Shown in pieces: positions 3,032 to 63,737 of a DNA stretch of 64,000 nt. Within the stretch, counting starts at the first letter, position 1, and the number at the start of each line of letters is the position of its first letter. The position numbers and the translations under genes were made by a program. The stretch is from contig NZ_ML119088.1 in the NCBI RefSeq assembly GCF_003789055.1, positions 124,001 to 188,000 on the forward strand, in the 5' to 3' direction. The DNA comes from Histidinibacterium lentulum (lineage in GTDB: Bacteria > Pseudomonadota > Alphaproteobacteria > Rhodobacterales > Rhodobacteraceae). The notes beneath the pieces are model-generated. The model did no database searches. It saw only the letters and a program-made list of their open reading frames with translations, and had not been told where the DNA came from.

Positions 3032-3930
3032 GCGGGACGGGTCGCCGCGCGGCGGGCGTGGGCGATGGCGAGAAGGCCCGCGAGGATCATCGGCAGGGAG
3101 AGGAGCTGGCCCATCGTCAGGCCCCAGGTTCCGAGCTGGAGCGCGTGGCCCACCGGGTTCGTGTCGGTCACGAACTGCGCATCGGGCTGGCGGAACAGCT
3201 CCACGACGAAGCGCGCGGCGCCGTAGCCGAGGAAGAAGACCCCCGCCGTGAGCCAGGGCATCCTCAGCCAGCCGCGCCGGTACGCGCCCCAGAAAAGGAG
3301 CGCGCCGAGCACCAGCCCCTCGAGGAGCGCCTCGTAGAGCTGGGAGGGATGGCGGGCGCAGAGACCCTCGATGCCGGGGCAGTCCTGCGCCAGCTCGCCG
3401 GGGAAGATCACGCCCCAGGGCAGGTCGGTGGGCCGGCCCCAGAGCTCGGCGTTGACGAAATTCGCGGTGCGCCCCAGCAGGAGCGCGGGCGGCGTGGCGA
3501 GCGCCAGCAGGTCCGCCATGGTCCCGAGCGGCGCGCCGTACTTGCGCGCGCAGAGCCAGACCGCGGCGACCACGCCCAGAAAGCCGCCGTGAAAGGCCAT
3601 GCCGCCCTGCCAGACGTAGAGGATCTCCATGGGGTTCGAGAGGTAGTAGCCGGGCTGGTAGAAGAGGACGAATCCGAGCCGCCCGCCGACGATCACGCCG
3701 ACGATGATCCAGGTGACGAGATCCTCCACCTGGGCGCGGGTCATCGGCGGGCTCTCGCCCCGGAACAGCGCGGGGCGCTCCACGGCGGCGACTACGATGC
3801 GCCAGCCGATCAGGATGCCCGCGATATAGGCCAGCGCGTACCAGCGCAGCGCCAGCTCCATGCCGAAGAGCTCGACGGAGAAGAGGACCGGGGAGAGCCA
3901 GTCGGGAAAGGGAATGCCGGTGCCGGACAT
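3028..3930 (-). CDS. lgt: Prolipoprotein diacylglyceryl transferase
   Basis: A 300-residue inner-membrane enzyme that transfers diacylglycerol from phosphatidylglycerol to the lipobox Cys of preprolipoproteins, the first step of lipoprotein maturation. Several hydrophobic segments alternate with the family motifs: HGGFLG at residues 114-119 and the Lgt signature [20 protein letters not shown] starting at residue 153, which includes the essential Arg. A C-terminal [12 protein letters not shown] segment carries the second conserved Arg. Length and motifs are those of a complete enzyme. It is the first gene of the leftward lgt-midA-pgeF operon. A lipoprotein that needs it is encoded at 22206. 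Confidence 0.95.
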
Positions 3931-4308: not shown

Positions 4309-4383
4309 GCTCCGCCCCGCCGGTGGCGGGACGGAGCGGAAGGGGGGCGCTGCCCCCCACGGCGAAAGCGGGGGGCTTTCGCC
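4309..4383. terminator. Cluster of three hairpins between convergent genes
   Basis: Three inverted repeats follow each other between ubiK (rightward) and the M42 peptidase (leftward): an arm pair GCTCCG (4309-4314) with CGGAGC (4332-4337), GGGGGGC (4342-4348) with GCCCCCC (4352-4358) around a GCT loop, and GGCGAAAGC (4361-4369) with GCTTTCGCC (4375-4383). They could terminate transcription from both sides. None has a long T-tract, so Rho dependence or another role remains possible. Confidence 0.5.
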
Positions 4384-4390
4384 GTCCCCC

Positions 4391-4414
4391 CCGGGATATT
4401 TCCGGCCAGAAAAG
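4391..4414 (+). repeat. Extragenic repeat, copy 1 (GATATTTC-GGCCAGAAAAG motif)
   Basis: This 24-base motif, containing GATATTTCCGGCCAGAAAA, recurs on the other strand at 18433-18456 with 23 of 24 matches. Both copies lie between convergent gene pairs, immediately beside GC-rich hairpins. It is AT-richer than its surroundings. It probably belongs to a dispersed extragenic element of this genome; I saw only two copies here. Confidence 0.6.
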
Positions 4415-4520
4415 AGCAGGGCAGGTGCGCAAGGTCGGGGCCTGCGCACCTGCCCGGGCGGCGCTGCGTTTCGTGCAGTGGCGGAGGGGGCGCGCCGCGT
4501 CCGGGCGGCGCGCGGGAGGG

Positions 4521-5558
4521 TCAGGCGAAGCTGGCGAAATAGGCCGAGAGGATGTCGCGGGCGGCGGCGAGGTCGGTCTTGTCGGCCATCTCGGTCACCG
4601 TGTGGATGTAGCGCGTGCCCACGGTGATGCCGATCGCGCGGGCGCCGGCCGCCGCCTGCTGCGCGGCCGCGCCGTCCTGGCCGCCCGCGCGCAGCATGGT
4701 GCGCTGGCAGGGGATGCCCTTCTCGGCGGCGAGGGCCTCGATCTCGGTCACCAGCCCCTTGTCGGAGATGAAGCTGCCGTCGCGGATGTGGAGGCCGAAG
4801 CCGCGGCCCTGCTCGGTGGTGCGGTCCTGTTCGGGCACGCCGGGCGTGTCGCAGGCGAGGGTCACGTCGATGCCGATGCCGATGTCGGGGCGCACCCTGT
4901 AGGCCGCGGTGCGGGCGCCGCGCAGGCCGACCTCCTCCTGGCTGGTGAAGACGACGTGGAGTTCCGCGCCGCGGCCGGCGTCCTTGTCGAGGGCGCGGAT
5001 GCTCTCGATGCCGAGCCAGCAGGCGATGCGGTTGTCGAGGGCCTTGGAGACGACCTTGTCGCCCATCTCGAGGAAGGGCTCGTCCATCACCACGTAGTCG
5101 CCGATCTTCACCTTCTCCCTTGCCGCGGCGCCGAGGCCGGTGTCGACGAAGAAGTCGGCCACCTCGGGCACCTTCTTGCGGTCCTCGGGGGAGGAGATGT
5201 GGACGGGCTTGCCGCCGGGGTTCATCACCGCCTTCAGATCGCCGTCCTCGGTGCAGACAAGCACCCGGCGCGAGAAGAGGTTGCGCGGATCGAAGCCGCC
5301 CACGGGCTGCAGGTAGAGAAAGCCCTTGTCGGTGATATGGCTGACGAGAAAGCCGATTTCGTCCATGTGGCAGAGCGCCATGACGCGCGGCGCGCCCTCG
5401 GTGCGGGCGTGGCGGACGCAGTGGAGCGAGCCCATCACGTCGGTCTCGACCCGGTCGAAGAGGCCCGCGACCTCGGTCTCGATCAGGGCGCGGACGCGCT
5501 CCTCGTGGCCGGGGACGCCGGGGGTTTCGCACAGGCGCTTCAGGAGGTCAATGTTCAT
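4521..5558 (-). CDS. M42 family metallopeptidase (glutamyl aminopeptidase/endoglucanase-like)
   Basis: A 345-residue cytosolic dinuclear zinc/cobalt aminopeptidase of the M42 (PepA/FrvX/tetrahedral aminopeptidase) family. Family motifs appear in order: ALCHMDEIGFLVSHI with the first His-x-Asp metal ligands, LDNRIACWLGIE with the bridging Asp, FTSQEEVGLRGA with the catalytic Glu pair, GIDVTLACDTPG with the Asp ligand, and IHTVTEMADKTD with the last His. These enzymes form large tetrahedral complexes that trim peptides after proteasome or protease action. Length is typical. The gene stands alone, leftward, convergent with ubiK. Confidence 0.92.
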   Translation of the reverse strand: MNIDLLKRLCETPGVPGHEERVRALIETEVAGLFDRVETDVMGSLHCVRHARTEGAPRVMALCHMDEIGFLVSHITDKGFLYLQPVGGFDPRNLFSRRVLVCTEDGDLKAVMNPGGKPVHISSPEDRKKVPEVADFFVDTGLGAAAREKVKIGDYVVMDEPFLEMGDKVVSKALDNRIACWLGIESIRALDKDAGRGAELHVVFTSQEEVGLRGARTAAYRVRPDIGIGIDVTLACDTPGVPEQDRTTEQGRGFGLHIRDGSFISDKGLVTEIEALAAEKGIPCQRTMLRAGGQDGAAAQQAAAGARAIGITVGTRYIHTVTEMADKTDLAAARDILSAYFASFA

Positions 5559-53503: not shown

Positions 53504-53549
53504 GGCTCTGGCGAGTTGGCGGAGTGGTTACGCAGCGGATTGCAAATCC
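53504..53549 (+). repeat. Left attachment site (truncated tRNA-Cys 5' part)
   Basis: Identical over 46 bases to 63658-63703. It contains six bases upstream of the tRNA plus the tRNA's 5' acceptor strand, D arm, and anticodon stem-loop up to the 3' side of the stem (53510-53549). From 53550 the sequence diverges, so this copy lacks the variable arm, T arm and acceptor 3' strand and cannot make a tRNA. Confidence 0.9.
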
Positions 53550-53693
53550 CGTTGTTTTTCCACCGAAAACAGGGCGCAAGACGGAAATCGTTATCAGGAC
53601 AGACCGGGAACGGTCAGTGAACATGATAACCGATCTTCGGGCCACAAATCGCGCCCCGCACTCGCCCGCCATATCCGGCCAGATCACAAGCGC

Positions 53694-54044
53694 ATGTCCC
53701 GGGTTCTGGGCTACTCGTTGACGCTGGGGACGGCCGACGCATGGGCAGACTTCGCCACTCTGGCGGCCGTGCGGCTGTCCGAGCGCGAGCTGGCAGGGAT
53801 TGCTTGGGCCGCGATGTGCGCATTGCCCCGCCGCCTTTCCGAAGAGGTGGCACGTCTGGCGCTTCGCGGCGCTGGTGCGCCCTTGCCCCCGTTCCTGGGC
53901 GGCATGGCGGACGCCCGCTTCTGGGCATCGAGGGCAAGCCCTGCTGAGCGCAAGGCATACGCCCTCGCCGCCTACGAGGCGATGAGCCCTTCCGACCAAG
54001 CCGCCCTTTTTCGACACATCAGCGAATTGAAGGTGCCGGGATGA
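53694..54044 (+). CDS. Small phage-associated protein, family seen in Rhodobacterales prophages
   Basis: A 116-residue helical cytosolic protein. The pattern GAPLPPFLGGMADARFWASR followed by ASPAERKAYALAAYEAM and a terminal ALFRHI segment resembles a short protein often encoded near the left end of Rhodobacterales prophages; no function is assigned. It starts about 145 bases inside the left att site, first in a run of overlapping genes. Its 3' end overlaps the next gene (ATGA). Low-complexity sequence from 53550 to 53693 holds no other gene. Confidence 0.6.
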   Translation: MSRVLGYSLTLGTADAWADFATLAAVRLSERELAGIAWAAMCALPRRLSEEVARLALRGAGAPLPPFLGGMADARFWASRASPAERKAYALAAYEAMSPSDQAALFRHISELKVPG

Positions 54045-54271
54045 ACGAACATGAGCTTGACGAGCTGCTTACCTTTCACTGGCCGCGCGTGGTGCGGCGC
54101 GTGATGGGCGGGGATGCGGACGACTGGTGCAAGGGGTTTGTCCGCTCCATCGCCCACCAAGGCAAGCGGCGGAACTGGACCCCGAGCGCAAAGCAGGCGG
54201 CTTTGATGCGCCGCCTCGTGGCTGAGCTGGGCAGGGATGAGACGACGAACGGCGAGGTGGTGGAGGGATAA
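54041..54271 (+). CDS. Small phage-associated protein (76 aa)
   Basis: A 76-residue helical protein, pattern LTFHWPRVVRRVMGGDADDW and GKRRNWTPSAKQAALMRRLV, which is a common small prophage gene arrangement in this group but of unknown role; the second half resembles short DNA-binding or holin-associated families only weakly. The ATG overlaps the stop of the previous gene as ATGA, so both are translated together. A hairpin follows. Confidence 0.6.
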   Translation: MNEHELDELLTFHWPRVVRRVMGGDADDWCKGFVRSIAHQGKRRNWTPSAKQAALMRRLVAELGRDETTNGEVVEG

Positions 54272-54277
54272 AAAGTA

Positions 54278-54303
54278 AAGCCCGCCGGTGAGGCGGCGGG
54301 CTT
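54278..54303 (+). terminator. Hairpin after the first two element genes
   Basis: AAGCCCGCC (54278-54286) pairs with GGCGGGCTT (54295-54303), an eight-base loop between. It follows the stop at 54271 and could attenuate read-through from the captured host tRNA promoter. The rest of 54304-54663 has no gene I can support; it holds one further inverted repeat, GCGGGTT (54544-54550) with AACCCGC (54568-54574). Confidence 0.5.
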
Positions 54304-54663
54304 AGGCGGCGTTCGGCTTTCACGGGTTAGCCGGGGACGACGCCTCAACGTGCTACCGGGAAACGGGCCACAGCACAAGGGCAGCTATTCCGCGCAAGCG
54401 GTCTCCCCACGCCCTAAGGCCCCGCTGCCACCCTCAAGGCGGCGAACATGGGGGAGCGGACCGAGCCGAGGGAAAGGCAGGTCTGGCCTAAGCGGCGGCC
54501 CGGCTCCGGTGAGCAGGCAAGATCGCGGCGGTCAGGGCGGGAGGCGGGTTTTCAACCCCGCTACAGTAACCCGCTTTCTGACCGTCACAACGACCCTCAC
54601 CAATGAGCAGGGACAGAGAAGAGCAACGACTGAGCCGAGAGATACGCGCGAGAGGAATTTGAG

Positions 54664-54882
54664 ATGCGACCGAACACACGAACACACGAGCACGGCGCGA
54701 GGCGAGAGCCGCCAGCACGCGGCCTGCGTGATCGCCTGGACGACCTCGCCCGCCGCGTCTCGTCTCTCTCGCCCTGTCGTCACGATCCGGAACGCTACCA
54801 CGCGGAGAAGAGCGAGATTGCCTTCGAGCTGCGCAGCCTCGCCCGCCATGCCCACGCCACACCCGAAAGGATGCCGCGATGA
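54664..54882 (+). CDS. Small hypothetical element protein (72 aa)
   Basis: A 72-residue basic protein, His/Arg-rich, helical in its C-terminal half (LRDRLDDLARRVSSLS, YHAEKSEIAFELRSLARHA). The ATG at 54664 is preceded by GAGAGGAA. Immediately upstream, a 19-codon frame (54603-54662) ends one base before this ATG and might be a leader. No family was recognised. It overlaps the next gene by four bases, which supports both being real. Confidence 0.5.
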   Translation: MRPNTRTHEHGARREPPARGLRDRLDDLARRVSSLSPCRHDPERYHAEKSEIAFELRSLARHAHATPERMPR

Positions 54883-55121
54883 CCACGAAGGCCGAACTGT
54901 CCGAGCACGCCGCCGAAGCCGTTGGCGCCATGCTTCTCAGGTTTCAATCGCGCAGCGGGATGCCGCTCGATGTGCTGCTGGCCGGTGCCCATGCCCAGAT
55001 TGTCTCGATGATGCTGACCACGCACGGGGCGGAGACTGCCGCCGAGTGCTGCGAGCAGGTCGCCGCCCGCCTTCGTTCCCTTCCCAGCTTGGCCGACGCG
55101 GAGGTAGCCGGCCGCTGCTGA
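54879..55121 (+). CDS. Small hypothetical element protein (80 aa)
   Basis: An 80-residue helical protein (EAVGAMLLRFQSRSGMPLDV, GAHAQIVSMMLTTHGAETAA) with two Cys near the C-terminus (AECCEQVAAR). No family recognised. The start overlaps the stop of the upstream gene (ATGA). It ends about 80 bases before the terminase small subunit gene. Confidence 0.5.
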   Translation: MTTKAELSEHAAEAVGAMLLRFQSRSGMPLDVLLAGAHAQIVSMMLTTHGAETAAECCEQVAARLRSLPSLADAEVAGRC

Positions 55122-55141
55122 CGCGGGTCCTTCCTGACGCG

Positions 55142-55176
55142 CCGTATACGGGGGCGCTAGGCCCGACGTGTCGGGC
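55142..55176 (+). promoter_or_regulatory. Two palindromes ahead of the packaging genes
   Basis: CCGTATACGG (55142-55151) is a perfect 10-bp dyad; GCCCGAC (55161-55167) and GTCGGGC (55170-55176) form a 7-bp inverted repeat with a two-base centre. Both lie 30-60 bases upstream of the terminase small subunit start, where an operator for the packaging/capsid operon would be expected. No protein is assigned to them. Confidence 0.4.
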
Positions 55177-55204
55177 GGTGCAAAAAATCACGTAAGGGTA
55201 AAAG

Positions 55205-55705
55205 ATGATGAGGATTTTTTCCGAACTGCCCATGGAAGGCACCGCCGTGCACCGGATCGGCGGGAAAGACCTCTGCGACCTTCTCAACCTGACCTCCGGG
55301 GCGCTGACCGACCTGAAGAAGCGCGAGATCGCCGTCCACCTTGGCCGCGACTCTTATGACCTCGAAGAGACCGTCCGCCGCTATGTCACCCACCTTCGCA
55401 GCACCGCCGCGCGCTGGGGCGATCCCGAGCAGGTTCCCCAGCTGACGGCGGAGAAGGCGAGGCTTGCCAAGGAACAGGCCGACGCCCAGGCGCTGAAGAA
55501 TGCCAAGATGCGCGGCGAGCTGGTGGAGGCATCCGAGGTGGAGAACACGTGGGCGGACGTTCTGCGCCAGCTGCGCGCCCGGCTGCTGGCGATCCCGTCA
55601 CGCCTCCGGGCCGATCTTCCCGGCCTCGATGCCGCGACCGTGGCCGCGATTGACCGGGCCTTGCGGGACACCCTCTCGGAGATCGCCGCCGATGACCACG
55701 CTTGA
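55205..55705 (+). CDS. Terminase small subunit (Nu1-like)
   Basis: A 166-residue DNA-packaging protein. The N-terminal winged-helix-like part (VHRIGGKDLCDLLNLTSGAL, LTDLKKREIAVHLGRDSYDL) recognises the packaging site, and the central coiled coil LTAEKARLAKEQADAQALKN followed by RGELVEASEVENTWADVLRQ is typical of Nu1-type small terminases. The stop overlaps the large-subunit start by 14 bases. Presence of a matching small subunit suggests that the element directs packaging to its own DNA. Confidence 0.85.
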   Translation: MMRIFSELPMEGTAVHRIGGKDLCDLLNLTSGALTDLKKREIAVHLGRDSYDLEETVRRYVTHLRSTAARWGDPEQVPQLTAEKARLAKEQADAQALKNAKMRGELVEASEVENTWADVLRQLRARLLAIPSRLRADLPGLDAATVAAIDRALRDTLSEIAADDHA

Positions 55706-57470
55706 AGCCGTCCGGGTCCGGGCGCTGCGCGCGCTGATCCCGCCGCCCAGGCTGCGCCTGTCGGAGTGGATCGAGTCCAGCGTGATCCTTCCCGAGGGCG
55801 TGAGCGCGCAGCCCGGCCCTGTCCGCCTCTGGCCCTTCCAGCGTGAGATTGCCGACGCCATCGGAGACCCCACCATCGAGCGTGTTACCCTGGTCAAGCC
55901 GGTGCGCGTCGGCTTCACCACGCTGTTGACCTCCGCCGTCGCATCCTTCGTGGCAAACGAGCCCGCGCCGATCCTCTGCCTTCTACCGGCGGAGGCGGAC
56001 TGCCGTGACTACATCGTGAGCGACGTGGAGCCGATCTTCTCCGCCTCGCCCGCCGTGGCCGATGCCCTGGGCGACGACCGCGAAGAGGGGGGGCGAAACA
56101 CGCTGCTTTCCCGGCGCTTCCCTGGAGGATCGCTGAAGGTGGTGGCGGCCCGCGCGCCCCGGAACCTGCGAAGGCACAACGTCCGCGTCCTTTTCATCGA
56201 CGAGGCGGACGGCATGGAAGCCACGGCGGAGGGAAGCCCGATCCTGCTGGCCGAACGCCGCACCCTGTCTTTCCCGGACAGGAAGATCGTCCTGGGAAGC
56301 ACCCCCGTCCACGAGGACACGAGCCACGTCTTGCGGGCCTATGCGCAGTCCGACGCGCGCATCTTCGAGGTGCCTTGCCCCGAGTGCGGCGCCTTCTCGG
56401 AGATCCTTTGGGAAGCCATCGTCTGGGATGATCGGCGCCCCGAGACGGCGCGATGGGCCTGTCCACATTGCCGGGCGGAGATCGAAGAGCGCCACAAGCC
56501 CGGCATCGTGGCAAGGGGTGCGTGGCGCGCGACCCGTCCAGAGGTGCAGGGGCACGCGGGCTTCCGGCTGAATGCCCTGGTTAGCCTGCACACGAACGCG
56601 AGCTGGGCGAAGCTGGCCGCCGAATTCATCGCCGCAAAGGACGACACAAGCACCCTTCAGACCTTCGTCAACACGATTCTCGGACAAGCCTGGAAGGGCG
56701 GCGGCGAGGAACTGGACGAAAGCGCGCTTGCCGCTCGTGGCGAGGACTGGGGCCTGAATGCGGTGCCGCAAGAGGTGCTGGCCCTGACCGCCGGGTGCGA
56801 CGTGCAACACGACCGGATCGAGGCCACGCTGATCGGCTGGGGCGAGGACGGCACCGCCTTCATTCTGGGGCATCGCATCGTCTGGGGTGCCTGGGATGAC
56901 GAGGGCACCTGGACGGAACTCGACGCCCTGCTGAAACAGACATACCCGCACACCCTGGGCGGGCGGATCGGCCTCGATGCCGTGGCCATCGACGCGGGCG
57001 ACGGCACGACCATGCACGCGGTCACGGCTTTTGCGATGCCGCGCGCCCGTCGCAAGGTGGTGGCGATCAAGGGCGCTCCCGGCAACCGGCCACTGATCGA
57101 GCGCGCGGGCTCGAAGACGAAGACCGGGGCGCGCCTCTGGATCGTGGGGGCGGACACCGGCAAGGCCCTGATCTATGGCCGCCTGTCCCGCGGCGCATCC
57201 GTCCGCCTCTCCGCCGATCTTCCGCCGGTATGGCTGGAACAGCTGGCAAGCGAACGGGTGGTGCTGCGCTACCGGCGCGGGCAGCCCGTGCGAAGCTTCG
57301 AGCGCATCCCCGGCCGCCGGGCGGAGGCCCTGGACTGCGCCGTCTATGGCTTCGCCGCGCGCAACATCGTGAACCCCGACTGGGAACGCCGCCGGGCCGA
57401 GCTGTCGCTGAAGCACGCCCCAGACACCCGACTGGCGCCGAAACTGGCCTCCGACTGGATGAAGCGATGA
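55692..57470 (+). CDS. Terminase large subunit (GpA family)
   Basis: A 592-residue packaging motor and nuclease. The deviant Walker A of the GpA family, KPVRVGFTT, is at residues 69-77; Walker B reads LFIDEADGM (about 167-175); a zinc ribbon is formed by CPEC (229-232) and CPHC (257-260). The C-terminal nuclease domain includes LTAGCDVQHDRIEATLIGWG and LDAVAIDAGDGTT, with the Asp residues expected for metal binding. All core parts are there, so the motor looks functional. The ATG at 55692 overlaps the small subunit. About 1.5 kb of unrelated cassette separates it from the portal gene. Confidence 0.93.
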   Translation: MTTLEAVRVRALRALIPPPRLRLSEWIESSVILPEGVSAQPGPVRLWPFQREIADAIGDPTIERVTLVKPVRVGFTTLLTSAVASFVANEPAPILCLLPAEADCRDYIVSDVEPIFSASPAVADALGDDREEGGRNTLLSRRFPGGSLKVVAARAPRNLRRHNVRVLFIDEADGMEATAEGSPILLAERRTLSFPDRKIVLGSTPVHEDTSHVLRAYAQSDARIFEVPCPECGAFSEILWEAIVWDDRRPETARWACPHCRAEIEERHKPGIVARGAWRATRPEVQGHAGFRLNALVSLHTNASWAKLAAEFIAAKDDTSTLQTFVNTILGQAWKGGGEELDESALAARGEDWGLNAVPQEVLALTAGCDVQHDRIEATLIGWGEDGTAFILGHRIVWGAWDDEGTWTELDALLKQTYPHTLGGRIGLDAVAIDAGDGTTMHAVTAFAMPRARRKVVAIKGAPGNRPLIERAGSKTKTGARLWIVGADTGKALIYGRLSRGASVRLSADLPPVWLEQLASERVVLRYRRGQPVRSFERIPGRRAEALDCAVYGFAARNIVNPDWERRRAELSLKHAPDTRLAPKLASDWMKR

Positions 57471-57577
57471 CGAAAGGGCAGGGCCGCGCCCGTCTCTCCG
57501 ACGAAGCGGCCCCCGTTACTCGGAGAGTGGGCAAACCCCGAGACCGCGCGGCTCCACTTGGCGGGGCGCGGCGCGGA

Positions 57578-57778
57578 TCAATTCCAGCTAAGGACCGCCT
57601 GCGCCAATCCCTCGCAAATTGGCCCCGCCATGCGCGGTTCACAGGTATAGACCCCGCCCGGCCCGGGCGGCCCGACTTGCTCCTCGAACCACTGCACCGC
57701 GGCTTCGCTGATCGGGTGCAGCATCACAATTGTCCCATGGTCCGCGACCTCGACGTGATCGCTGAGGGTTTCCGTCAT
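57578..57778 (-). CDS. Small hypothetical protein with the Xre gene
   Basis: A 66-residue acidic protein (VADHGTIVMLHPISEAAVQW, FEEQVGPPGPGGVYTCEPRM) with no recognised family. It overlaps the stop of the leftward Xre gene as ATGA, which supports its being real and co-expressed. Small acidic proteins beside Xre regulators may be antirepressors or partners; this is an inference from position alone. Confidence 0.5.
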   Translation of the reverse strand: MTETLSDHVEVADHGTIVMLHPISEAAVQWFEEQVGPPGPGGVYTCEPRMAGPICEGLAQAVLSWN

Positions 57779-58023
57779 GTCCGGTCCCGCAACCGCACCC
57801 CAGGCCCGCCGCCGTTCGGCTCGATGAACTGAACCCCGGCGGCTTCGAGGGCGGCGCGGATTGCTGAAAGTGCCGCAGGAGACGGCGACGGCGAGCCCGA
57901 ACCCTCAGCCCGCTTCACGGTCATAGAGGAGACCGTGGCAGCTTCCGCCAGCTTGGACTGCGACCATCCGAGCAACGCGCGGGCGGCCCTAAGCTGACTT
58001 TCCGAAATTGGCTCTTGTTCCAA
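57775..58023 (-). CDS. Xre-family helix-turn-helix regulator
   Basis: An 82-residue DNA-binding protein. Residues 8-42, ESQLRAARALLGWSQSKLAE followed by AATVSSMTVKRAEG, form the Xre HTH; a short C-terminal part (AALSAIRAALEAAGVQFIEP) is common to phage repressor-like and 'IPTLxRxLExaGvxf' regulators. The start is TTG at 58023, chosen because it directly adjoins the operator and yields a normal HTH protein; no ATG fits. It is divergent from the 84-aa gene at 58080 across a 56-base interval with an inverted repeat, so autoregulation is likely. Confidence 0.85.
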   Translation of the reverse strand: MEQEPISESQLRAARALLGWSQSKLAEAATVSSMTVKRAEGSGSPSPSPAALSAIRAALEAAGVQFIEPNGGGPGVRLRDRT

Positions 58024-58027
58024 AATA

Positions 58028-58044
58028 GAACATTCCCTATGTTC
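58028..58044. promoter_or_regulatory. Operator candidate GAACAT-N5-ATGTTC
   Basis: A perfect 6-bp inverted repeat with a 5-base centre in the interval between the divergent Xre gene and the gene at 58080. A third half-site GTTC lies at 58017-58020, seven bases from the first GAAC. Most likely the Xre binding site. GTTC-N7 spacing also recalls alphaproteobacterial LexA boxes, though those are direct repeats. Confidence 0.5.
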
Positions 58045-58079
58045 CCTTTTAGACCATACCACAACCGGAGATCGCGACA

Positions 58080-58334
58080 ATGGCCAAGCTTCCACCCCTT
58101 GAGGTGCCCCAGATGGAAGGCATCAATTATCCCGATCCGATCTTCGACACGGCGATCCGGGGCGATTCCGACCACGCCCTTTTCCAGATTCTTCGTCTCG
58201 CCCGGATCGGGACGGCTGCCTCGATGACAGAGGCGAATATCAAGCTGACGCCTGACGACTTCGGCGCGCTCTGCGACGCAATGGGCCGCATTGCCGCGAA
58301 CGGTCTTCTGCACTGGGGAGGCACAAGGCAATGA
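58080..58334 (+). CDS. Hypothetical protein divergent from Xre (84 aa)
   Basis: An 84-residue acidic soluble protein (MAKLPPLEVPQMEGINYPDP, LFQILRLARIGTAASMTEAN, MGRIAANGLLHWGGTRQ). A GGAG precedes the ATG. No family was recognised. Divergence from a repressor-type gene across an operator suggests that it is the first gene controlled by Xre in this cassette. Its stop overlaps a 38-codon frame (ATGA). Confidence 0.5.
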   Translation: MAKLPPLEVPQMEGINYPDPIFDTAIRGDSDHALFQILRLARIGTAASMTEANIKLTPDDFGALCDAMGRIAANGLLHWGGTRQ

Positions 58335-58447
58335 GCGCAGCCCTGACTGCCCGTCGCGCCAAGCTGTTCTGCGTGAACCTCAACAGGCGCTGCGCCCCGC
58401 GCCTCTCGTGGCGCGGCCGTAAGCCGATCCGGTTTCGGGCTAACTGA
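58331..58447 (+). CDS. Possible 38-aa basic peptide
   Basis: A short frame starting in the stop of the preceding gene (ATGA) and encoding a highly basic peptide with Arg/Lys and three aromatic residues (RRAKLFCVNLNRRCAPRLSW). The overlap is the only support; it may be fortuitous. Confidence 0.25.
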   Translation: MSAALTARRAKLFCVNLNRRCAPRLSWRGRKPIRFRAN

Positions 58448-58459
58448 GGGGATTCACTT

Positions 58460-58490
58460 GACACCCCGCATTCGTGCGGTGCAGGGTGTC
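58460..58490 (+). promoter_or_regulatory. Stem-loop with TTCG tetraloop overlapping a TTGACA box
   Basis: GACACC (58460-58465) and GGTGTC (58485-58490) enclose CCGCA (58466-58470) and TGCGG (58475-58479) around the tetraloop TTCG. The 5' arm contains TTGACA (58458-58463) at its edge, with no good -10 17 bases on. It lies 25 bases ahead of the 174-aa gene. It may be an operator for a promoter there, or an RNA hairpin acting on translation or termination. Confidence 0.4.
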
Positions 58491-58514
58491 GGATGATACC
58501 CAAGGGGGCCAGTC

Positions 58515-59039
58515 ATGCGTCGATCCCACCTTCTGCTTTGTGCCGATATTGAACTCGCAAGGTTCAAGGTTCTGCGGACACGGGGGCAGCTGCCCCTCAT
58601 GAGTGGCTGCGTCGATGATGCGGATTCGCGTGGAGCAACCTACAGTCTCGATGACGCCTTTCGGCTTCGCTTGCTTCTCGACGTCATTGGGCAGGATGAC
58701 GACCTGCCGGCCGTCCCCCCCGCGAAAGCCGCTGGTCTAATCGACAATGCGCTGACGTGGATCGTTGGCAATGGCTTGCCGCACCCGCTGGAAGCGCGGG
58801 AAGGGCCGGACCTTTGGGTCGGGGTGGCCGTGATCGAAAGCGGGCAGTCGGATGCTCGCTACCGCTTCAGCAATTGGTTTGCGGGCAGCCTCACAGAACT
58901 CCCTGTTTTCATCGAGCGCGCCGAGTCCGAGGCGTTCGGGGATGCGGCTGTTCGGATCGTGATCGTCAATGCATCGCGCGCGGCGCGCCTTGTGCGCAAG
59001 CGGGCGCTCCGCCTCGGACTGCCTGAGGCCGAAGAATGA
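58515..59039 (+). CDS. Hypothetical protein upstream of portal (174 aa)
   Basis: A 174-residue protein. The first 70 residues (LARFKVLRTRGQLPLMSGCV, YSLDDAFRLRLLLDVIGQ) look like a MerR-type winged helix of phage-associated proteins; the remaining part is an alpha/beta domain (GPDLWVGVAVIESGQSDARY, AAVRIVIVNASRAARLVRKR). I do not recognise the family. It overlaps the portal start (ATGA), so it is co-translated with the head genes. It may be an accessory gene with a role in packaging control, or a cargo gene. Confidence 0.6.
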   Translation: MRRSHLLLCADIELARFKVLRTRGQLPLMSGCVDDADSRGATYSLDDAFRLRLLLDVIGQDDDLPAVPPAKAAGLIDNALTWIVGNGLPHPLEAREGPDLWVGVAVIESGQSDARYRFSNWFAGSLTELPVFIERAESEAFGDAAVRIVIVNASRAARLVRKRALRLGLPEAEE

Positions 59040-60367
59040 GCTGGCCCTTCGCCCCGTTCCAGCGCCTCGCCCGGAGGATCGCCCGCCCCACCGGCAAGCG
59101 ATCCGGCATCGAGGCCGGAGCCCCCGGTCGGCGGTGGACCGGGGCTTCCACTGTCACCGACCCCCGGAATTCCACCCTCGTCGCCCGTGGCCCAGCTGCG
59201 GCCCGTGCGACTGCGGCGGTTCTGAACTCGCCCCAGGGCGCGCGCATCGAGGAAGCCTGGGCATCGGCCCTCGTGGGCAAGGGCTGGCAGGCCCGATCCC
59301 GGCATCCTGACGCGGACACCGCGCGCACCCTCTCCGCCGCCTTCGAGCTGGTGGTCGCGCAGCACCTCGTCACCCTCGCCCGCGCCGTGGTCAGAGACGG
59401 CGAGGCTTTCGCCCGCCTGCGGATCGGCCCGGACGACCGAATGCGGCTTCAGCTGATCCCGGCGGAACAGGTGGACCCCACCTTGACCCGTGACCTGGGC
59501 AACGGCGCGCGCATCGTGTCGGGCATCGAATTCGACGCGGACGGCGAGGTTGTCGCCTATCATGTCCTTCCCGAGGCCCCGGGCACGCCTTTCACCGCCT
59601 ATCTCGCCGCCGTGCGGGTGCCCGCCCGCGACATGCTCCACGTCTTCGATCCGCTGTTTCCGGGGCAGGTGAGGGGCCTGTCGTGGCTTGCGCCGGTCCT
59701 GCTGAAGATGCGCGACCGTGACGGCGCCTCCGACGCCCTGCTGATGCAGCTGAAGACCGCAAGCCTGCTTACCGGCTTTATCCGCGACCCGGACGGCACC
59801 TTCGCCGGCTTCGAAGGCGAGGCCCAGGGGAACGCGCTCAACGTGGCGCTGGAACCGGGCGCCATGCGCATCCTACCGCAAGGCGCGGACGTGACCTTCT
59901 CGACGCCCGGCTCCGGCCTCGCCCAGGCGGTGGAATTCATGCGCGCGCAGGACCGCGAGATCGCAGCGGGCGCCGGGCTGACCTATGAGCAGCTGACCGG
60001 CGACCTCTCCGAGGCGAACTATTCGAGTGCCCGCGTCGGGCTTCTCGAATTCCGCCGCCGGGCCGAGATGCTCCAGAAGACGCTGATCGAGGGGCAATTC
60101 CTCGCCCCGCTCTGGCGCCGGTGGATCGAGGTGGAGGCGCTGGCCGGACGGATCGAGGCAACGGGCGCCGCCCGTGACGATTTCATGGCCGTCCGCTTCG
60201 TCGCCCCAGGCTGGCAATGGGTAGACCCCGCGAAAGAGGTGGCCGCTGACGTGGCCGCCATCGAGGCCGGACTGAAGAGCCGGGAAGAGGTGGTCGCGGG
60301 ACGTGGCCGGGACATTGACGAGCTGGACGCGGAACGCGCCCGCGATGCAGGAGGCGAAGCGGCATGA
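59036..60367 (+). CDS. Phage portal protein (lambda GpB family)
   Basis: A 443-residue portal, the ring through which DNA enters the capsid. Landmarks of the GpB group are LNSPQGARIEEAWASALVGK, VVRDGEAFARLRIGPDDRMR, LIPAEQVDPTLTRDLGNGAR, PARDMLHVFDPLFPGQVRGL and the tail end LTYEQLTGDLSEANYSSARV. Length is at the lower end of the family. The start overlaps the preceding gene, and its end overlaps the protease-capsid gene by four bases, so the head genes form one translational unit. Confidence 0.92.
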   Translation: MSWPFAPFQRLARRIARPTGKRSGIEAGAPGRRWTGASTVTDPRNSTLVARGPAAARATAAVLNSPQGARIEEAWASALVGKGWQARSRHPDADTARTLSAAFELVVAQHLVTLARAVVRDGEAFARLRIGPDDRMRLQLIPAEQVDPTLTRDLGNGARIVSGIEFDADGEVVAYHVLPEAPGTPFTAYLAAVRVPARDMLHVFDPLFPGQVRGLSWLAPVLLKMRDRDGASDALLMQLKTASLLTGFIRDPDGTFAGFEGEAQGNALNVALEPGAMRILPQGADVTFSTPGSGLAQAVEFMRAQDREIAAGAGLTYEQLTGDLSEANYSSARVGLLEFRRRAEMLQKTLIEGQFLAPLWRRWIEVEALAGRIEATGAARDDFMAVRFVAPGWQWVDPAKEVAADVAAIEAGLKSREEVVAGRGRDIDELDAERARDAGGEAA

Positions 60368-62133
60368 CGGTGCATCTTCGGGCGCTGACGACGACGCCCT
60401 CGACAGTGAACATGGAAGCCCGGACGGTGGAAGCCATCGTCTCGACCGGCGCAGACGTGGTGCGTCCCGGCTATATCGAGCGCCTCGACCCTGCGGCGGC
60501 CGAGCTGGGGCGGATGATCGGCGCCCCCGTGCTCGACGCCCACCGCACCGCCTCGACCCGAGATCAACTGGGAGTGATCGAAGCGGCCGAGCTGCGCCCC
60601 GAGGGTATCTGGGTGCGCATCCGCTTTCGCAGCAACGAAGCCGCAGGCGCCGTGCTGGCCGACATCGCGGAGGGGACGCTTCGCGGCCTGTCCATCGGCT
60701 ACTCGGTGGCCGAGTGGAAAGAGCAGACCGAGAGCGGGCAGCGCGTCCGCATCGCCAAACGGTGGACGCCGCTTGAGGTGTCTGTCGTCCCTGTCCCGGC
60801 CGATCCGGGCGCACACTTCCGAGCAGGAGAAACGAGCATGGAAGCCGAAACGCAGACGGCGGGAACGACCGCCGCCACCCCCGGCGCGACCCGCGCCCAG
60901 ATCAACGTTGAAATCCGCCAGCTGGCCGAGACCGCCGGCCTGACGCGCGACTGGGCGGACGAGCAGATCGACGCGGACGCCACGGTCGAAGCCGCCCGCG
61001 CTGCGGCCTTCGAGGCCATGCGGCAGCGCAGCGCCGCCCCCACCCGCACCACGCGGACGCAGATCACGGTGGATCACACCGACCCGGCGGTGATCGCCCA
61101 GCGGGCAGGGGAGGCACTCTACGCGCGGTCCCACCCGGAACACCAGCTGTCCGAGCCCGCGCGGCCCTTTGCGCACATGTCCACGCGCGACCTCGCCCAG
61201 GACTGCCTCCGCCGCGCCGGCATCCCGACCACCGGGCTTGCCTCCGATACGATCATCACGCGGGCGCTGCACACCACGTCCGACTTCTCCCTGATCCTGG
61301 GCGATGCTGTCGGCCGCGAGCTGCGCCGCGCCTATGACGCGGCCCCCGCCGAAATCATGCGGGTCGCCCGCGAGACGACGCACCGGGACTTCCGGCCTAA
61401 GCGGGCGCTGCAATTCGGAGAAGGCACCGGCTTCGAGGAGGTTCCCGAGGGCGGCGAATTCAAGCACGGCACCTTCGGGGAGTCGGAGGAAAGCTTTGCG
61501 CTGAAGAGCTACGGGAAGATCTTCAGCATCACGCGGCAGGCCCTCGTCAACGACGACCTGAGCGCCTTTTCCCAGGTGCCCGCGAAGCTGGGTGACGAGG
61601 CGCGGCGCTTCATGGCCGGGGCGATTGCCGCCAAGCTCGAAGCCAACCCCGCCATGGCGGACGGCGATGCTGTCTTCCACGCCAATCACGGCAACCTCGC
61701 CGGCACCGGCGCCACCCTGTCGCTGACTTCCCTGTCCGGCGCCCGCCTCGCCATGCGGCGCCAGACTGGCATCGACGGCGAGCTGATCGGCGTCACGCCC
61801 CGTTTCGTCGTGGTCTCGCCCGAACTCGAGACGACCGCAGAACAGGTTCTGGCCGAGCTGGCCGCCACCACATCCGAGAACGTGAACCCCTTCAGCTTCC
61901 TCGAGCTGGTGGTGGAGCCGCGCCTGACCGACCCCGACGCCTGGTATGTCGCCGCCGACCCCGCCCGTATCGACGGGCTGGAATACGCCTACCTCGAAGG
62001 CGCCCCCGGCCCGCAGATCGAAACCCGGCAGGGCTTCGAGGTGGACGGGGTGCAGATGAAGGCGCGCCTCGACTTCGGGTGCGGCTGGGTGGAGCACCGC
62101 GGCTGGTTCAAGAACGAAGGCCCGGCTGAGTAA
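60364..62133 (+). CDS. Fused prohead protease and major capsid protein
   Basis: A 589-residue polyprotein. Residues 1-156 are an HK97-type (U35) prohead protease, with His60 in PVLDAHRTAS and Ser110 in LRGLSIGYSV as catalytic pair. Residues 157-270, Ala/Thr/Glu-rich and helical (EAARAAAFEAMRQRSAAPTR), look like a scaffold segment. Residues about 270-589 are a major capsid domain (RALQFGEGTGFEEVPEGGEF, KIFSITRQALVNDDLSAFSQ, NPFSFLELVVEPRLTDPDAW). Self-cleavage would release the parts. Such fusions are known among Mu- and HK97-like phages. The stop overlaps the gpW-like gene by one base. Confidence 0.9.
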   Translation: MTVHLRALTTTPSTVNMEARTVEAIVSTGADVVRPGYIERLDPAAAELGRMIGAPVLDAHRTASTRDQLGVIEAAELRPEGIWVRIRFRSNEAAGAVLADIAEGTLRGLSIGYSVAEWKEQTESGQRVRIAKRWTPLEVSVVPVPADPGAHFRAGETSMEAETQTAGTTAATPGATRAQINVEIRQLAETAGLTRDWADEQIDADATVEAARAAAFEAMRQRSAAPTRTTRTQITVDHTDPAVIAQRAGEALYARSHPEHQLSEPARPFAHMSTRDLAQDCLRRAGIPTTGLASDTIITRALHTTSDFSLILGDAVGRELRRAYDAAPAEIMRVARETTHRDFRPKRALQFGEGTGFEEVPEGGEFKHGTFGESEESFALKSYGKIFSITRQALVNDDLSAFSQVPAKLGDEARRFMAGAIAAKLEANPAMADGDAVFHANHGNLAGTGATLSLTSLSGARLAMRRQTGIDGELIGVTPRFVVVSPELETTAEQVLAELAATTSENVNPFSFLELVVEPRLTDPDAWYVAADPARIDGLEYAYLEGAPGPQIETRQGFEVDGVQMKARLDFGCGWVEHRGWFKNEGPAE

Positions 62134-62348
62134 TGGCCCTCGACCTTTCCGAGCTGGAGACCCTGCGCGATGCCCTCCTGAGGGCGCGCGCCAAGGGCGT
62201 GCGAACCGTCGGCATCGGGGACAAGCGCGTCGAATACAGCACGGACGCGGAAATGGCCGCCGCGATCGCAGACCTGGAGGCGCGCATCCGTCGCGCCTCC
62301 GCCACCCGCCCCAGCCGGATCAACTTCACCACGAGCAAGGGCTTCTGA
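62133..62348 (+). CDS. Head-tail joining protein (gpW-like)
   Basis: A 71-residue protein: an N-terminal helix (LSELETLRDALLRARAKGVR), a short beta hairpin (TVGIGDKRVEYST), and a second helix (AEMAAAIADLEARIRRAS), ending in a basic tail RINFTTSKGF. The layout matches gpW-type connectors that let phage DNA leave the capsid and dock the tail. In lambda-like phages gpW sits between terminase and portal; here it lies after the capsid and next to xis/int. It is the last virion gene; no tail gene follows. Confidence 0.75.
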   Translation: MALDLSELETLRDALLRARAKGVRTVGIGDKRVEYSTDAEMAAAIADLEARIRRASATRPSRINFTTSKGF

Positions 62349-62349
62349 C

Positions 62350-62553
62350 ATGCCTTCGCCTGCCCCTCTCTTCGCAGACGACAAGACCGCCGCGCAGCTC
62401 TTCTGCATGAAGCCGAAGGACTTTCGCCGCCTTGTCGAAGAGGGCCATCTTCCCGGCCCGCGCGACCTTGGGGGGCTTGAGCGTTGGGACGTGGAGGAGC
62501 TGCGCCGGATCGCAAGCGGCGAGGCGATGGACAACCGGGGGATGGACTGGTGA
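62350..62553 (+). CDS. AlpA/excisionase-like MerR-type DNA-binding protein
   Basis: A 67-residue winged-helix protein (KTAAQLFCMKPKDFRRLVEE, GHLPGPRDLGGLERWDVEEL), typical of AlpA/Xis proteins, which bend DNA at the att site and may also activate int. It overlaps the integrase start (GTGA), a normal xis-int arrangement. AlpA-like regulators are a hallmark of phage-inducible islands in Gram-negative bacteria. Confidence 0.85.
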   Translation: MPSPAPLFADDKTAAQLFCMKPKDFRRLVEEGHLPGPRDLGGLERWDVEELRRIASGEAMDNRGMDW

Positions 62554-63575
62554 GCAAGTGGGGCGGAAAGCGCTACTTGATCGAGACGAAGCCCGGTTTC
62601 GTCTACGTCCGGAAGGCCGGGAAATACCTGGGCCGCATCGAGGCGCCTTATCCCAGCGCCGAATTCGACCGCCAGTATTGGGACGTCCTGACCGGCCGCG
62701 CTGGCGAAGCCTCGACCTCATGGCGGGCGCTGATCGTGTCATATCGCAAGTCTGATCGGTGGACCCGCCTCAAGCCGCGCACCCGGCAGGATTACGAGAA
62801 GGCGCTTCTCTACATCGAGGAGAAGAATGGCGCCCGCGACATGACCCGGCTGCAACGCCGGGACGTCCTCGCCATGATGGAGAAGAACACCCACCGGACC
62901 CGGTTCGCGAACTACGTGGCACAAGTCATGTCGGTTCTCTGCGAGCACGCTATCGACCTGGGGTGGATCAAAGCGAACCCGGTCAAGGGTGTTCGGCTCA
63001 AGAAGACCCCGACCGAGCGTGAGCAGCCGCATGTTCCCTGGACGAACGCGGCGGTGGAGCGGTGGCGGGCCGAAGCCGCCCCGCTGCCCCGACTGATCTT
63101 CGAGATCGGCGTCGGCAGCGTCCAGCGCCCAGGAGATTGGCCGGGCTTCACCTGGGGCGACTATGACGGCGAGTCCCTGAGGCTGACCCAGGGCAAGACC
63201 GGCAAGGCCCTTGCGCTTCCCTGCACCCCTGAGCTGCGCACCGCCCTTGAGGCCGCCAAGCGGGAGCTGGGCGCAGCGCCACACCCCTCGCGCCATATCC
63301 TCGCCCGGAAGGACGGGACGGCGATGCTCTATCGGGACGTGTCCCGGGTGATGCTGAAGGAGCGCAAGCGGCTGCACCTGACCGGCTTCGACCTGCATGC
63401 GCTTCGCTACCGTGGCGTGATGGAGCTGGCCTGGGCGGGCTGCGATGATGACGAGATCGCCAGCTTCAGCGGGCATTCCAGCAAGGACATGATCCGAAAG
63501 TATGCGGGCATCGCCCGGCAGATCATGCGCGCCAGCACGGCAGCCGAGAAGCGCAAGCTATGGGCATCGCTATGA
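62550..63575 (+). CDS. Tyrosine recombinase/integrase
   Basis: A 341-residue site-specific recombinase. An N-terminal Arm-binding part (about 1-55) and a core-binding SAM-like domain (about 56-150, WRALIVSYRKSDRWTRLKPR) precede the catalytic domain with Arg193 (GSVQRPGD), Lys219 (QGKTGKA), His283-x-x-Arg286 (LHALRYRG), His309 (SGHSS) and Tyr318 (RKYAG). All catalytic residues are there. The GTG at 62550 overlaps the xis stop. It lies 90 bases from the tRNA-Cys attachment site it must have used. Confidence 0.93.
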   Translation: MSKWGGKRYLIETKPGFVYVRKAGKYLGRIEAPYPSAEFDRQYWDVLTGRAGEASTSWRALIVSYRKSDRWTRLKPRTRQDYEKALLYIEEKNGARDMTRLQRRDVLAMMEKNTHRTRFANYVAQVMSVLCEHAIDLGWIKANPVKGVRLKKTPTEREQPHVPWTNAAVERWRAEAAPLPRLIFEIGVGSVQRPGDWPGFTWGDYDGESLRLTQGKTGKALALPCTPELRTALEAAKRELGAAPHPSRHILARKDGTAMLYRDVSRVMLKERKRLHLTGFDLHALRYRGVMELAWAGCDDDEIASFSGHSSKDMIRKYAGIARQIMRASTAAEKRKLWASL

Positions 63576-63622
63576 ACAGAACAAGCACAGAACAAGAACC
63601 TGATAACCGGACTGATAACCCC

Positions 63623-63651
63623 TTGCAGCCCTCCGCCCGGTTCTCTAAGGA
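63623..63651 (+). promoter_or_regulatory. Element-borne promoter candidate for the intact tRNA-Cys
   Basis: TTGCAG (63623-63628), 17 bases, TAAGGA (63646-63651), about 13 bases before the tRNA. This weak box lies inside the element; it, or read-through from int, must supply transcription of the intact tRNA-Cys since the host promoter is now 10 kb away. Assigned from spacing only. Confidence 0.35.
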
Positions 63652-63657
63652 AACAAG

Positions 63658-63703
63658 GGCTCTGGCGAGTTGGCGGAGTGGTTACGCAGCGGATTGCAAA
63701 TCC
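63658..63703 (+). repeat. Right attachment site (5' part of the intact tRNA-Cys)
   Basis: Identical to 53504-53549. It covers six bases before and the first 40 bases of the intact tRNA-Cys. The element side of the junction is to the left, so the 5' half of the tRNA now present here was delivered by the element, and only bases from 63704 on are the host original. Confidence 0.9.
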
Positions 63704-63737
63704 GTGTACACCGGTTCGATTCCGGTACTCGCCTCCA
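63664..63737 (+). tRNA. tRNA-Cys (GCA)
   Basis: A 74-base tRNA. The acceptor strands GGCGAGT (63664-63670) and ACTCGCC (63727-63733) pair fully, the anticodon loop TTGCAAA contains GCA at 63696-63698, the T loop reads GGTTCGATTCC, and the terminal CCA is encoded (63735-63737). It is the attachment site of the phage-like element; its 5' 40 bases are duplicated at 53510-53549. Confidence 0.95.

Follow-up and report, generated by a model that had tools for sequence, protein, structure and literature searches.

The 64,000-nt stretch of the Histidinibacterium lentulum genome analysed here (the window; contig NZ_ML119088.1, positions 124,001 to 188,000) carries, at its positions 53504–63703, a compact integrated element that encodes the head and packaging genes of a phage and no recognised tail gene. 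Very probably this element is a phage satellite that integrates into its host, forms its own capsids and functions in the manner of the capsid-forming phage-inducible chromosomal islands (cfPICIs), with particles, induction, dependence on a helper phage and mobilisation inferred from sequence. Function and membership are separate questions here. The element appears to work like a cfPICI, and the conservation of its head-only plan bears out that much of a preliminary description that had named it a candidate capsid-forming phage satellite, but strict cfPICI membership does not stand, given the lack of an HNH gene and a head module of the lambda type.

A complete head and packaging gene set

Between two terminal repeats, the genes follow the order o1, o2, a small open reading frame (ORF), o3, terS, terL, o6, xre, o8, o9, portal, protease-capsid, gpW-like, AlpA-like, and integrase, with o6 and xre on the minus strand. 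The features are as follows.

53504..53549, +, attL: 46-bp repeat that duplicates the 5′ half of tRNA-Cys together with the 6 bp before it
53694..54044, +, o1: 116 aa, no assigned function; other elements have relatives at their left end (10 clustered ORFs across the 36 elements)
54041..54271, +, o2: 76 aa, no assigned function; the region holds a primase/helicase-like gene instead in elements that have one
54664..54882, +, small ORF: 72 aa; similar small ORFs precede terS in relatives (cluster c6, 10 ORFs, three of them from duplicate loci)
54879..55121, +, o3: 80 aa, no assigned function; precedes cos/terS; cluster of 6
55125..55165, +, predicted cos site: cosQ-like GGGTCCT at 55125–55131, predicted cosN region at about 55148–55163
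55205..55705, +, terS, small terminase: 166 aa; Phage_Nu1/phrog_57
55692..57470, +, terL, large terminase: 592 aa; GpA_ATPase and GpA_nuclease
57578..57778, −, o6: 66 aa, no assigned function; adjoins the xre gene
57775..58095, −, candidate xre-type helix-turn-helix (HTH) repressor: HTH_31, E 7e-6, just below the Pfam cut-off
58080..58334, +, o8: 84 aa, no assigned function; first gene rightward of the switch
58515..59039, +, o9: 174 aa; variable; overlaps the start of portal
59036..60367, +, portal: 443 aa; Phage_portal_2
60364..62133, +, S78 protease and major capsid fusion: 589 aa; Peptidase_S78 and Phage_capsid_4; phrog_4523, E 9.7e-184
62133..62348, +, gpW-like head-tail adaptor: 71 aa; phrog_2545, head-tail adaptor Ad1
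62350..62553, +, AlpA/Xis-like DNA-binding protein: 67 aa; weak match to phrog_66 excisionase, E 0.014
62550..63575, +, tyrosine integrase: 341 aa; Phage_integrase
63623..63650, +, promoter-like TTGCAG, 16 nt, CTAAGG: inside the element directly before attR; identified by eye
63658..63703, +, attR: 46-bp repeat extending into tRNA-Cys (63664–63737)

Domain scans agree with the preliminary description on terS, terL, portal, the protease-capsid fusion, and the gpW-like, AlpA/Xis-like and integrase genes, the AlpA/Xis match being weak; its gene list was correct as far as it went and omitted o1, o2, o3, o6, o8, and o9. The open frames and overlapping starts it reported are likewise present: all frames are open and tightly packed, and five gene pairs overlap (terS/terL, o9/portal, portal/capsid, capsid/gpW, and alpA/int). 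Capsid, protease, portal, connector, TerS and TerL are all encoded, as expected of the head and packaging set of a cfPICI, and no HNH endonuclease was matched among the scanned ORFs of the element. The same scans recognised neither lysis genes nor replication genes; the absence of a replication gene accords with the earlier account, though many relatives carry a primase or helicase-like gene.

A bounded insertion at a single-copy tRNA-Cys gene

The terminal repeats, 53504–53549 and 63658–63703, are perfect (46 bp, 100% identical) and lie 10,154 bp apart. The right copy enters a tRNA-Cys (gca) gene, the sole tRNA that ARAGORN finds in the window and the only full tRNA-Cys (gca) copy detected in the 4.35-Mb genome. 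All four congeners compared (G065, G774, G775, and G776) lack the island, and there a protein-isoaspartate methyltransferase gene adjoins tRNA-Cys, the spacer between the two being somewhat longer in G776. The 10.15-kb region, which the preliminary description had placed between two 46-bp repeats, is a bounded insertion at a single-copy tRNA-Cys gene, with both att sites and empty sites found.

Because the repeat spans the 5′ half of tRNA-Cys, integration cuts the tRNA off from its own promoter; by eye, a TTGC-type −35 box stands ahead of tRNA-Cys in the empty sites. Integration would restore the 5′ half of the tRNA, and the promoter-like sequence at the right end of the element probably stands in for the displaced native promoter, restoring expression.

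The head-only plan is conserved among relatives

To collect loci, we searched public genomes, IMG/VR and sampled whole genomes for capsid and TerL. TerL (E ≤ 1e-100) was found in 26 of 394 sampled genomes of the bacterial family, at 27 places with 48–100% identity; two of these places are cut by contig ends (G114 and G121), and the other 25 are readable and contain head genes. In a sample of the class Alphaproteobacteria, 7 of 385 genomes have TerL, including this genome and G075, and the two from outside the bacterial family (G673 and G458) show 59–61% identity. The remaining three of the seven, at 36–40% identity, have TerL in contexts that hold tail genes. The architecture set comprises 36 elements, including the 25 readable family places, after exclusion of repeat loci (L045 is the window element, L006 and L051 are L071, L047 is L007, and L060 is L008). 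Contigs cut three elements at one end (L050, L057, and L059) and end at or near three others (L064, L073, and L135).

The same gene order recurs across these 36 elements. The preliminary description had suggested a search for the same head-only set, in the same order, in relatives, with isolated and non-conserved copies as the outcome that would count against it; instead, both gene set and order are conserved within the family and also elsewhere in the Alphaproteobacteria, and the tRNA genes occupied are many and various. ARAGORN places a tRNA or transfer-messenger RNA (tmRNA) 1.3–2.0 kb behind the last head gene marked by tblastn in 31 of the 36, and the targets amount to 14 kinds: 13 tRNA kinds (Cys, Arg, two Glu, two Ser, Phe, Gln, Lys, Met, Tyr, Gly, and Leu) and tmRNA. 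In L140, the tRNA is at the opposite end of the element. Exact repeats of 17–51 bp with one copy at the tRNA sequence were found at 20 loci; L077 has a 36-bp repeat away from any tRNA, and in other loci only 13–15 bp match. Repeat-to-repeat distances range from 9.85 to 15.0 kb, the longest belonging to L137, which holds a large insert. With a profile built from 21 integrases of these elements, an integrase is recognised in 30 of the 36.

The region before terS is less uniform. It holds o1 and o2 in the window element; other elements have a helicase-like gene together with an o1-like one, an HTH protein or an ORF of 657–796 aa, and representatives of these pre-terS ORFs match primase or helicase families, and many relatives carry such a gene. 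The terL-portal interval of several elements contains variable cargo, and L061 and L147 have a permuted order in which portal, capsid and gpW stand ahead of terL. Genome G285 holds two family elements, L140 and L088, at different tRNAs. At the tRNA-Cys locus of L071, a second integrase (505–1515, oriented) lies directly upstream of the element, perhaps as a tandem remnant. The Paracoccus versutus plasmid pBEN carries the same kind of element (L159, 6550–17139), with a TerL of 74% identity and 17-bp repeats at tRNA-Glu; pBEN is a 2.2-Mb plasmid that is typed as conjugative and listed without annotated genes in the plasmid table.

The best TerL match among those listed from 50,697 phage records is 36.6% identical, and a near-identity DNA search of phage records with the whole element found nothing. 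The window element is already present in IMG/VR as an 11-kb contig (L045). An exact terminal repeat of 15–400 bp occurs in none of the 25 IMG/VR loci L045–L069, 23 of which are fair tests (L068 and L069 are parts of contigs), and there is thus no sign in them of a circular or packaged form. Judged from titles and the openings of abstracts, the literature searched contains no description of this element family.

No tail module in the elements or in their flanking ORFs

The preliminary description also held that tail genes are absent. As queries we used 16 proteins of the Rhodobacter phage RcKemmy, head and tail proteins of phiAP1 and Pyei1, and the ORFs of two contigs of this genome (C15, 10001–50000, and C1, 30001–50000), and as targets all 490 called ORFs of the 36 elements. 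The RcKemmy head queries match widely (TerL 37 ORFs, portal 36, capsid 38, cement 25, and gpW 20), but the tail terminator, tube, chaperone, tape measure, sheath, baseplate and tip queries have no match at E ≤ 0.001 among the 490 ORFs, and the only matches on the tail side come from one element, L007, considered below. The RcKemmy, phiAP1 and Pyei1 queries detect tail genes in four tailed control loci (L148, L149, L150, and L011), and the test is therefore able to see tails.

The surroundings of the elements give the same result. The 256 ORFs outside the element bounds in the same loci have no match to the RcKemmy, phiAP1 or Pyei1 queries, and the own-genome queries match three of them, from two queries without assigned function. 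Tail genes directly adjacent in a close relative would, according to the preliminary description, have marked a deletion derivative; none was found inside the elements or among the flanking ORFs covered at the 25 readable family places. Among 150 representative non-core ORFs, the PHROGs families listed (25 of 122) include no tail family besides the head-tail adaptor, and the Pfam families listed (25 of 38) include one Phage_attach and one DUF6441 match, which fit two ORFs of L007. In the window element itself, the intervals between genes are too short for a tail module, with 1.6 kb between terL and portal. The tail module of a complete prophage is therefore absent, as expected of a cfPICI.

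A predicted cos site precedes terS

The element contains a single GGGTCCT heptamer, which starts at 55125 and lies 80 bases ahead of terS; we take these letters to be cosQ. A G-rich stretch follows about 20 nt past it, resembling the placement of cosN in lambda, the right end of which reads ACGGGTCCTTTCCGGTGATCCGACAGGTTACG. In the 39 distinct elements with a named terS (L054, L064, and L132 are excluded from this count), GGGTCCT is found near terS in 29 and GGGTCCC in 8 more, for a total of 37, mostly 80–145 bases before terS; L061 and L136 have neither. Random windows of similar length contain GGGTCCT in 2.6% of cases (328/12,800) and GGGTCCY in 4.2% (539/12,800). GGGTCCY is absent from all nine yardsticks with other terminases (RcKemmy, Pyei1, AcaML1, C7, C15, C1, L085, L086, and L148), and phiAP1 has GGGTCCT. 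According to the excerpted text of PMC4669245, the 7-bp cosQ varies very little from one lambda-like phage to another. By motif and place, we predict a lambda-like cosQ-cosN site before terS.

The predicted site bears on a rival view in which the element is a satellite whose capsid genes mainly redirect or block the assembly of the helper, its DNA traveling in helper heads. A PICI with a capsid-protein homolog that makes small heads is described in the excerpt of PMC6092414, which speaks for this view. We consider it unlikely, since the full set of TerS, TerL, portal, protease, capsid, adaptor and cos is conserved, which goes beyond what remodelling would be expected to need.

A separate TerL lineage under purifying selection

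In a quick TerL tree of 55 rows (three short rows were dropped beforehand, and several end branches are long), 42 rows of the element family separate with an SH-aLRT of 100 from the remaining 13, of which 9 are tailed, 3 belong to the C7 type described below and one is L078, the sample of tailed phages being small. Two of the 42 rows, L008 and L060, represent the same place, and the contigs of L130, L131, and L054 are too short to reveal a following tail.

Pairwise dN/dS values are 0.055–0.17 for TerL, 0.09–0.27 for portal, 0.085–0.29 for capsid and 0.05–0.36 for terS; they are rough, as several pairs have dS near 1. The pairs include elements at different tRNAs: the window element and L007 (Cys and Glu), L134 and L135 (Phe and Ser), and L088 and L140 (Ser and Arg). 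TerL, portal and capsid are under purifying selection despite differing integration sites.

These data address the possibility of a decayed prophage, left behind when deletions removed the tail, lysis and replication genes of a tailed lambdoid phage. Tailed Rhodobacter phages such as RcKemmy have homologs of the head genes in nearly the same order, and relatives with damaged genes exist (L145, L137, L059, L058, and L141). Open frames together with purifying selection across different sites nevertheless argue against decay, in keeping with the preliminary description, which had argued from the lack of broken genes in the region. Elements with this head-only plan sit at many tRNA genes, dN/dS for TerL, portal and capsid is 0.05–0.3, the TerL lineage is separate from the sampled tailed phages, and none of the 25 readable family contexts contains a tail module. 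We regard a decayed prophage as very unlikely.

A candidate switch gene and a variable gene before portal

The preliminary description found no lytic-switch gene. We disagree on this point: the minus-strand xre-type HTH candidate at 57775–58095 is divergent from the o8, o9, portal and capsid genes, and it has relatives at the same position in other elements (68% in L005), where xre or Arc-like genes stand.

In 33 of the 36 elements, the last 420 bp before portal include the end of an ORF of at least 80 aa, which is very variable. In the window element this is o9, the N terminus of which looks MerR-like by eye. An AlphaFold2 model of o9 (mean pLDDT 84) has no match at E ≤ 0.001 in PDB or BFVD, and the fold searches therefore lend no support to the MerR-like appearance. 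As to the variable cargo of the terL-portal interval, the 150 representative non-core ORFs include single matches to GmrSD (Pfam) and SspE/HEC-06 (PADLOC); the PADLOC matches are single-member ones, with SspE-, HEC-06-, and DrmD-type names among the 25 of 48 listed.

Since o9 has no assigned function, is variable and overlaps portal, one could suppose that o8 and o9 encode a very small or unrecognised tail and that the element is an autonomous phage. This seems highly improbable, as only 1.6 kb separates terL from portal, o9 begins, by eye, with what looks like a DNA-binding domain, genes for lysis or replication are not recognised, and a gpW adaptor is retained. Least probable of all is a domesticated head, kept by the host as a capsid or as a system like a gene transfer agent (GTA) that packages host DNA: hosts could keep tail-less heads, and relatives of these bacteria make GTAs, but the integrase, att sites, patchy presence, changing tRNA sites and cos-like site before terS speak against it. 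Evidence from conservation, selection, att and cos sites and gene content led us to reject the decayed prophage, the GTA-like system and the autonomous tiny-tailed phage.

Candidate helpers and another head-only element in this genome

A tailed prophage lies on contig C15, where ORFs match terminator, tape measure, tip and endolysin genes, and contig C1 carries a related tailed prophage, as judged by shared clusters. These two resident prophages are possible helpers of a satellite. Over the ranges covered, exact repeats of more than 17 bp were seen in neither of them.

A second head-only element lies on contig C7 (2889–21049; L079 and L080). It is 18.1 kb long, has 47-bp repeats at tRNA-Met (2889 and 21003), and carries a left-end integrase, a Prim-Pol primase, another TerL, a 5mC methylase, an HNH gene, portal, capsid, and gpW-like and cement genes; its capsid is 50% identical. 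The C7 ORFs, taken to 40 kb, have no match to the RcKemmy, phiAP1 or Pyei1 tail queries. In the TerL tree, the C7 protein groups with L078 and AcaML1, apart from the family of the window element, and head-only elements may therefore have arisen more than once here.

Weighing the satellite interpretation

Several observations weigh against a head-only satellite. L007, from Mameliella, has two ORFs around terS (3143–3757 and 4328–4648) related to the RcKemmy head-tail attachment protein and the next minor tail protein, and L078, which has a different TerL, encodes a 236-aa protein that PHROGs assigns to phrog_1924, "minor tail protein"; the cut between head and tail is therefore not absolute. 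Perhaps the L007 genes serve a different helper. The gpW gene, the supposed docking part, is less constrained (dN/dS 0.19–0.51). Some relatives are damaged: L145 has a stop in TerL, L059 a broken terL, L058 and L141 split capsid frames, and L137 a large insert in portal, with IS21-type families among those listed for it. In 6 of the 36 elements, the profile recognises no integrase (L005, L008, L140, L142, L143, and L144); L005, L008, L142, and L144 have an unassigned minus-strand ORF of 332–425 aa in its position, L140 has an ORF that clusters with recognised integrases, and no ORF is called there in L143. As for the candidate helpers, both C1 and C15 lack GGGTCCY before terS, and the gpW of C1 is only 39% identical.

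With these points taken into account, the satellite interpretation suggests the following cycle. A product of the helper phage would relieve the switch between terL and portal, and the integrase, together with the AlpA/Xis-like protein, would excise the element. Replication would depend on helper or host enzymes for the window element and on their own primase for many relatives. The element's TerS and TerL would then cleave concatemers at the cos site of the element and package its 10.15-kb DNA into heads built from its own portal and capsid proteins, the gpW-like adaptor would dock the filled head onto the neck and tail of the helper, and lysis by the helper would release the particles.

A more specific picture, for and against which we would give even weight, is that head-only satellites of Alphaproteobacteria form an independent and long-lived lineage with an origin outside the known cfPICIs. 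Its members would fill their own heads with single 10-kb genomes running from cos to cos, bear next to portal a fast-changing gene for helper sensing or adaptation, and on integration restore the 5′ half and promoter of an essential tRNA, and a second, separately derived head-only lineage (C7) would live in the same genome. If the element works as proposed in the cycle above, tail piracy by head-building satellites exists in Alphaproteobacteria with a lambda-type head module, and it is not rare, given the TerL lineage in 26 of 394 sampled genomes of the bacterial family. Head-tail compatibility between unrelated phages would become testable in another host group, and many "incomplete prophages" and viral contigs of 10–13 kb could be explained, the window element (L045) being one of them.

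Comparison with known systems

Canonical cfPICIs are of the HK97 type. Going by the descriptions, the window element is set apart from cfPICIs by its GpA/Nu1 terminase, protease-capsid fusion and gpW adaptor; it also has no HNH match and no recognised primase, and its integrase stands directly behind the head genes. We do not call it a strict cfPICI because HNH is absent and its terminase and capsid types differ. The feature list for cfPICIs in the excerpted text of PMC10690885 comprises capsid, protease, portal, connector, TerS, TerL and an HNH endonuclease. The likeness to cfPICIs of the EcCIEDL933 type is that of an integrated island with its own head and packaging genes, no tail and an expected use of helper tails (PMC10690885 and PMC11389934, as excerpted).

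The Streptomyces satellites MulchRoom and MiniFlayer are similar in having packaging and capsid genes and no recognised tail genes in the excerpted account (PMC10690885). They are set apart from the window element by other hosts, virulent helpers and terminal repeats.

RcKemmy shares the order TerS, TerL, portal and protease/capsid fusion as well as a gpW-like gene, and its capsid is 39% identical over 83%. Unlike the window element, however, RcKemmy goes on with genes for head-tail attachment, tube, tape measure and tip, and its gpW-like gene lies between terL and portal instead of after capsid. The classical PICIs of Gram-negative bacteria resemble the window element as small islands with an att site, AlpA and a cosQ/cosN-like site (PMC6092414 and PMC9026076, as excerpted). 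In the excerpt of PMC6092414, these islands are described as lacking phage structural genes and using helper particles, whereas the window element has a full head set.

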